Part shown: positions 46,588 to 48,312 of the stretch, piece by piece
Position numbering within the stretch: the stretch's first letter is position 1
How the letters are laid out: every line of letters begins with the position of its first letter
Assembly (NCBI GenBank): GCA_023481165.1
Contig: JAMCWO010000369.1
Location: forward strand, 1-64,000
Reading direction: 5' to 3'
Source: Planctomycetota bacterium
GTDB taxonomy: Bacteria > Planctomycetota > Phycisphaerae > Sedimentisphaerales > Anaerobacaceae
Length of the DNA: 64,000 nt
Notes under the pieces: model-generated
What the model was told of the DNA's origin: nothing
Database searches by the model: none
What the model saw: only the letters and a program-made list of their open reading frames with translations
Position numbers and translations under genes: made by a program

Positions 46588-46786
46588 AGCTTCAATCGGT
46601 CGCATTATACGGCCTGCCGCCGCCCCTTCAAGGTCAAAACCGGCCCAGCATCCCGTGCGGGTGTGCGGCAAGATAGCGCCAGGTTAGATTGCCGGTTGAT
46701 GGGTGGCACGCCCAGACTTGTTGCACGTGTCTTGCTGCACCCCTGTTCCACGCCCCGGGAGCCCCGTCCCACCCAGCCCCGCCCAG

Positions 46787-47143
46787 AATTGGCTTCGTTT
46801 TTGCACATTTCGTCCTCCGGGGCCCCGGCCGACCGGGGAATTGGGTTCGTTTTGCGCATTTGCCTCCAGCAGATTGGGTTCGTTTTGCGCGTTTGCCCAT
46901 CCTCCCCCAGGCCCTGTCCCATGCGGCCCCGCCAGGAATTGGCTTTGTTTTGCCGAGGCCTATCGGATGTGCTATTCACCATAACTCCTTTCTCGCAAAG
47001 CACTTGCCCTTCTTGTTGCCCTGGCGGAAATTGGCTTTGTTTCGCACGATCCGGCTCTGCGGGGACAGCGTCCTTGCCGCCCGACGAAAATTGGGTTCGT
47101 TTTGCACAATCGCAATCGCAAAGTTGGCTTCGTTTTGCACGAT
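46787..47143 (+). repeat. Array of seven direct repeats, core AATTGG(G/C)TT(C/T)GTTTTGC(G/A)CA, with variable spacers
   Basis: Units at ~46787, 46839, 46873, 46937, 47029, 47089, 47122, all same orientation. Confidence 0.9.
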
Positions 47144-47802
47144 TGGCTCCGGCCGCGGCCCAATGCGTCTTTCGCTTTGCGGCTATCAGCAGGATCAGGA
47201 AGACCCCGCGCGCGAACGCCACCCCAGCCGGGGCGTGGAGCAGACGCGGTGACAGGCCCGCTGGTAGCCTGCCATGCGCTAAACGCAAGACCATCGTCCG
47301 GAATTGGCGCAGGAAAACAAGATTTTGACAAGTAGTAGTACAATTCATAAATCATAACTCCGAGGGGGCCGCCCCGGGGCAGACTGTCCCTCTACCCTTG
47401 CTCCGTGTTGCACGAATCGTGCCGAAATTCTGTGCGCGCGCGAGGCCCGAAGATCGCGCAAATCCTTATGCCTGAAGGAATAAAGAATTTTTCGCATGCG
47501 GGGTGTTTTACCTTCTCAACTGTTGCACGAAGGTTGACAGTCAGGCCGCTGATGGACAACACAAGCACTGTCATCCCCACGGAGGCGCGGGATGTCGTCG
47601 CGTGGGGTGGGCTGTGTCCACCAATGAGTAAGATGATCCGGCCCGATTCGCTTGCCTCTGGTTCCCAGAATCCGTCTCCCAAATCCCACTTGCCAGGTCT
47701 GTTACTCACTCTATAATTCTTTTGTCGTGGGGATGGAGTCCCCCGTACAACCGCCTGTCCGGCTGATGACTCCTACTCGTTTTGCGTAGCAGGAGTATCT
47801 GT

Positions 47803-48312
47803 ATGCCGGAATCACCTTGGTTACTTGCTGCCCTGTGGATCGGCCTGGCGCTGTTGGCGAGTCTCATGGCGTTCACCTTCTTGACGCCTTTCTATTTCCT
47901 CAAAGCCGGGTCGCTGGTCAAAGCGAGCACGGTGGGGGGCGCTTTGGGATTGATCGCGGCGCTGCTGGGCGTCAAGATGCTGACGAAGTTCCTGGGAATC
48001 TGGCCGTTGACGAAGGCTTTTCGCTTCGGCAAACGGGAAGGGATGTACACGACGCTGCTGATGTCCACGGGTCTGACCTTCGGCAGCATCTCGGCCCTGT
48101 TCGGCCTGACGAACGGGATCATCAACCAGGACCAATATACGGTGCTGGTCACCGCGGTCATTGGCAGCGCCCTGGTCCCGACGCTGATCGCCCGGAAGTG
48201 GTTCCAGCGGGAGCACATACTGTCAGAGGAGACAGATCATGGAGTACAAGAAGATTCTACACGGCCTGGACGGGTCCCCGGGGTCGTTCCAGGCGTTGGA
48301 ACACGCGCTTGA
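47803..48312 (+). pseudogene. N-terminally truncated monovalent cation/proton antiporter C-terminal fragment
   Basis: 'FLTPFYFLKAGSLVKAS...YTTLLMSTGLTFGSISALFGLTNGIINQDQYTVLVTAVIGSALVPTLIARKWF' matches only the C-terminal part of CPA-type antiporters. Confidence 0.6.

Follow-up and report, generated by a model that had tools for sequence, protein, structure and literature searches.

BOX elements of streptococci are built as boxA-(boxB)n-boxC, with further modules in S. suis; their RNA is predicted to fold, and their terminal inverted repeats are shared with an IS (PMC3049150). Judged by analogy, this modular type of interspersed repeat appears to be the closest known kind to an array of direct repeats in a window of 64,000 nucleotides, the whole stretch of planctomycete DNA that was analyzed. 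Both elements are small, non-coding, intergenic and modular, vary in the number of their internal modules and are dispersed genome-wide. Unlike BOX, the planctomycete element has no conserved pairing within its module and no significant inverted termini, and its constant part is a 15-20-nt core, here termed R, placed between many module families. The likeness is architectural only; the phylum is unrelated and the core sequence differs. Within these bounds, the locus is almost certainly a single member of a family of dispersed, non-coding, modular interspersed repeats whose architecture most resembles that of BOX elements. This high-copy family seems to be unreported in the open-access literature searched.

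At the focal locus, seven copies of R (TGCRAAACRAASCCAATT) occupy the minus strand between positions 46787 and 47141, all in the same orientation. An ungapped scan of the 64-kb window with the R pattern, allowing up to three mismatches, returned six matches against 0.01 expected, all within the array. Two are perfect (47089-47108 and 46839-46858) and four carry two mismatches each: the 5'-most copy at 47122-47141, those at 47029-47048 and 46937-46956, which respectively open and close a 92-nt module, and that at 46872-46891. The seventh and 3'-most copy (46787-46807) was missed because of one extra T in its T run. A preliminary description of the DNA had listed the same seven repeats, and only the start of the third moves, from 46873 to 46872. 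It had also read CAKRTQF- and RKTNPI-like peptides as R translated in different frames, which is correct; hypothetical proteins built on these motifs are thus likely to be annotation artefacts.

Long open frames span the array, as would be expected of a coding sequence, but the spacings in the window genome do not keep a reading frame (60, 48 and 67 in the three classes modulo 3) and a Pfam search of both long ORFs crossing the array gave no match, in agreement with the earlier view that the array is not coding. The signatures of a structured or small RNA are also missing: there is no consensus base pair in the 90-nt module (40 modules), the dispersed block 5' of the array (the head, below) has a single 9-pair hairpin without compensatory change or covariation, and an Rfam search found nothing in the element, the only match being an adjoining fluoride riboswitch. 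The small-RNA array once suggested for the locus is further disfavored by its position at proB, on the upstream side of the promoter. Coding sequence, or structured or small RNA, is therefore barely credible as an explanation. With neither pairing nor a reading frame, the constraint on R is one of neither RNA structure nor protein. An upstream ORF at a AAAGGATTATG motif was also considered and set aside, since its ATG alternates with ACG and its distance to R varies.

Direct repeats separated by spacers recall CRISPR, but R is short and degenerate, the focal spacings range from 33 to 92 nt and the spacers are common to dozens of arrays, which bears out the earlier exclusion of CRISPR. The same spacers had been called unique, a statement that does not survive comparison with other arrays. 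Three of them, all on the minus strand, have family members elsewhere: a family D module of ~37 nt (46803-46839; R-to-R distance about 52), a family A module (46888-46936; R-to-R 65) and a 77-nt family B module (46952-47028), which contains AAAGGAGTTATGGTGAAT and has homologues across the whole bacterial family. Many of the 175 spacers from 20 arrays group into families that recur across arrays in differing order, several of them with a characteristic length (92 for B, 52 for D and 53 for G). Module orientation between arrays is nearly constant (626 plus versus 18 minus matches). Some families are short tandem repeats (GATTGCGG, ATTCCACC, GGTAGTC), and the microsatellite-like family G is present outside R arrays too. 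Family K spacers (L002, L005, L016) hold a perfect hairpin, GCCGATC-CGGA-GATCGGC.

The element also continues past 47143, where the feature had first been taken to end. Comparison of array flanks revealed a second conserved block 5' of most arrays in the genome, the head, which at the focal locus is a dispersed block of ~165 nt at 47371-47537 (minus strand) inside a wider match at 47341-47542. Its 17 aligned copies have a mean column identity of 76% and a sharp 5' edge. A linker (47142-47340, minus strand), with a part that matches the linker of the L018 array on contig 192, leads from head to array. Head, linker and array together give a full element of about 750 nt (46787 to ~47537, minus strand), about twice the length originally described. 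It occupies the whole interval between a divergent pair of promoter-like sites, bordered on its 3' side by that of proB (TTGAAG-N16-TATAAT, 46604-46631, minus strand) and on its 5' side by one ahead of the fluoride riboswitch (TTGCCA-N16-TATAAT, 47690-47717, plus strand). On the plus strand, the stretch 47720-48312 carries this riboswitch (RF01734, 54.7 bits) directly upstream of a 169-aa fragment whose match to a Na+/H+ exchanger is confined to the C-terminal portion of the latter (257-367 of 375), and a universal stress protein gene comes next. The riboswitch has apparently been stranded before a truncated antiporter.

With up to one mismatch, the 15-nt core occurs 527 times in the 6.05-Mb assembly (376 contigs), compared to none for a reversed control pattern. 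Its presence elsewhere in the genome and in relatives agrees with the earlier proposal of an uncharacterised interspersed array, which absence there would have overturned. In a profile over all copies the core stands out sharply as AAAAC R AA S CC AATT, with a weaker flanking preference and little conservation past about 10 nt. Twenty further array-bearing stretches were fetched, and statements on arrays refer to these sampled loci and not to an exhaustive list. The element is present between genes at dozens of sites in this genome.

The repeat had been supposed to be widespread in planctomycetes. It does recur in other members of the phylum, but is centered on a single GTDB family within one order. 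A phylum-wide draw gave a clear excess over the control only in members of the window's order, within which one family (f1) is rich, with up to 297 exact cores, a second (f4) is poorer and the remaining families have none or almost none. Named matches are mostly Phycisphaerae, Sedimentisphaerales or unclassified Planctomycetota MAGs, so the carrier order, a poorly studied one, is probably Sedimentisphaerales. R is common to genera spanning 44-61% G+C.

Arrays in other genera have a cleaner layout, consisting of R, 89-92 nt, the next R and, after it, a block of sub-repeats 10 and 11 nt long. The 90-92-nt R-to-R module aligns family-wide, including the window's own 46937-47048. In the arrays of three genomes (G408, G461 and G462; L051-L079), the sub-repeats lock at ~10.5 bp (21, 32, 42) and not at multiples of 10 or 11; in G461 and G462 together, a sub-repeat spacing of 21 nt is seen 23 times, 22 nt once and 20 nt never. 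A 21-nt tandem unit could mimic helical register in these genera. No helical phasing was found in the array spacings of the window's genome, where the preferred values (33, 52-53, 60, 65 and 92) resemble module lengths. The 5' part of the G408, G461 and G462 arrays varies by genus and subfamily, being for example palindromic and TGTAGAGAGCGCACTACA-like or made of repeated ACTTTAGGCACTTTAG, and has no apparent alignability with the head of the window genome.

The conservation of R relative to its surroundings was measured on module copies found by the spacer alone, with the flanking R scored afterwards. R copies edging D modules have 0.4-0.6 mismatches in 15, compared to 76% pairwise identity among D spacers, and R at the 3' edge of B modules has 1.0 mismatches in 15, compared to 67% among B spacers. 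R is thus better kept than these spacers, indicating either a constraint on R or that R is the point of recombination; homogenisation by recombination, not selection, could be the source of its conservation. The 5' R is missing at 4 of 20 B modules, which counts against its being a binding site.

Iterons and other clustered binding-site arrays consist of asymmetric direct repeats of ~20 bp. R arrays share this property and, in some genera, the helical register; they differ from iterons in having no register in this genome and spacers that are modular and shared. The constraint on the core, its asymmetry, the absence of RNA structure and the helical register elsewhere modestly favor recognition of R as duplex DNA. 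From such sequence patterns, it is about an even call that R is recognized in this form by a putative clade-specific protein, with arrays as clusters of putative sites. Arrays would then grow and be shuffled by duplication and recombination at R cores, R itself being maintained through its recognition, and each array would represent a cluster of putative binding sites parked outside promoters. Binding of this kind might influence how the genome is organised, how nearby genes are regulated or how the element is mobilised. A more ambitious version would make the arrays nucleoprotein assembly sites of a clade-specific DNA-binding protein, belonging to an order-specific chromosome-organising or global regulatory system. 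Such sites would have been seeded between genes, in dozens of places outside promoters, and in other genera would begin with a two-site module of 90 bp and continue with helically phased sites. On sequence features, this version is rather unlikely.

Positions relative to genes were determined with gene calls from a simple hexamer caller made for the analysis. The sampled arrays in this genome are intergenic and, where scored, sit just outside promoters; 17 of the 18 with two usable neighbors are directed toward the start of a gene. A single transcription regulon with upstream activating sites would show this arrangement, but the genes beside arrays have no common function, the two genes compared in congeners are without arrays there, and co-directional gaps over all genomes show no orientation preference (20 sense versus 21 antisense), leaving a regulon highly improbable. 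A strict rule that arrays point at gene starts, suggested by the 17 of 18 here, was likewise dropped after failing across genomes. Over all genomes, the gene-proximal end of the element is usually the R end, with median gaps of 56-171 nt against 531-671 nt on the head side, the latter consisting in part of the head itself. In two genomes (G402 and G403; L084, L086, L087, L088 and L090), a convergent gene has its stop codon within a few nucleotides of the R end, and a TAA stop can be completed there by the final T of AATT. In an empty-site comparison of G402 with G403, the element is joined straight to the stop codon, but the flanks are too divergent for a target-site reading.

Orthologous positions were compared at two loci in the window's genus and at one neighboring-locus pair in another genus. 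The proB gene is present in all eight congeners, and the seven in which the DNA ahead of it was read all lack the array, with the -10 region of the promoter recognizable in most. Similarly, at gspE of G472 the promoter region is kept and the array is absent. Of the orthologous arrays at the pair in the other genus, one pair is no closer than non-orthologous arrays and the other ranks first among the matches. At the orthologous UbiA-side site, the elements of the two species G461 and G462 (L053 and L069) differ in their 5' subfamily sequence, which suggests that this site has undergone turnover or conversion.

Placement that is lineage-specific and spares promoters, neighbor genes without functional relation and the lack of a cross-genome orientation rule are all consistent with a modular repeat, BOX- or MITE-like, that is purely selfish or driven by mutation and would be copied by putative machinery and shuffled by recombination. 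R would have no host function in this case and would serve only as a preferred recombination or terminal sequence. Exact cores that swing from 0 to 152 per genome within the window's own genus, and short tandem repeats among the modules, agree with such dynamics. Against them stands the greater conservation of R than of the remainder. Furthermore, the element differs from MITEs in that its terminal inverted repeats are not significant (score 7 versus a shuffled 95th percentile of 7, p = 0.07). Congeners that lack the element showed neither a target duplication nor a clean empty site, their flanks being too different to give one. A repeat without host function is a real, if somewhat doubtful, possibility. 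A constant core combined with an interchangeable module pool, and with a register of 10.5 bp in some genera, offers a testable case of selfish dynamics versus protein-driven DNA assembly.

Integron cassette arrays and CALINs, like the R arrays, have a short recurring site, interchangeable units and one orientation, and a constant short site between interchangeable modules could in principle be the substrate of a site-specific recombinase acting at R. However, the R-array units have no genes, R lacks attC-like folded pairing, the arrays are dispersed genome-wide, and an integron integrase above the cut-off occurs in only 10 of 89 family genomes, with none in this genome or in the R-rich G461, G462, G408 and G424. 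An integron-like cassette array is accordingly very unlikely. REP/RAYT systems differ in that R is not palindromic and Y1 transposase presence does not track R counts: no Y1 match accompanies the 88 cores of G465, and no core accompanies the 19 Y1 matches of G446. Neither the integrase nor the Y1 transposase correlates with R, and both were rejected as movers. Pairs of inward-facing arrays 2-4 kb apart in G461 gave the idea of a transposon with inverted array ends, which was abandoned because ordinary chromosomal genes lie between them (PALP/threonine-synthase-like, UbiA, RlmN, PfkB and PrmC) and most such arrays stand beside their own transcription unit. An array in G398 (L080, 6932-7440, minus strand) contains a directly repeated larger block of ~190 nt with two R cores in it, the pattern that array growth by segmental duplication would be expected to leave.
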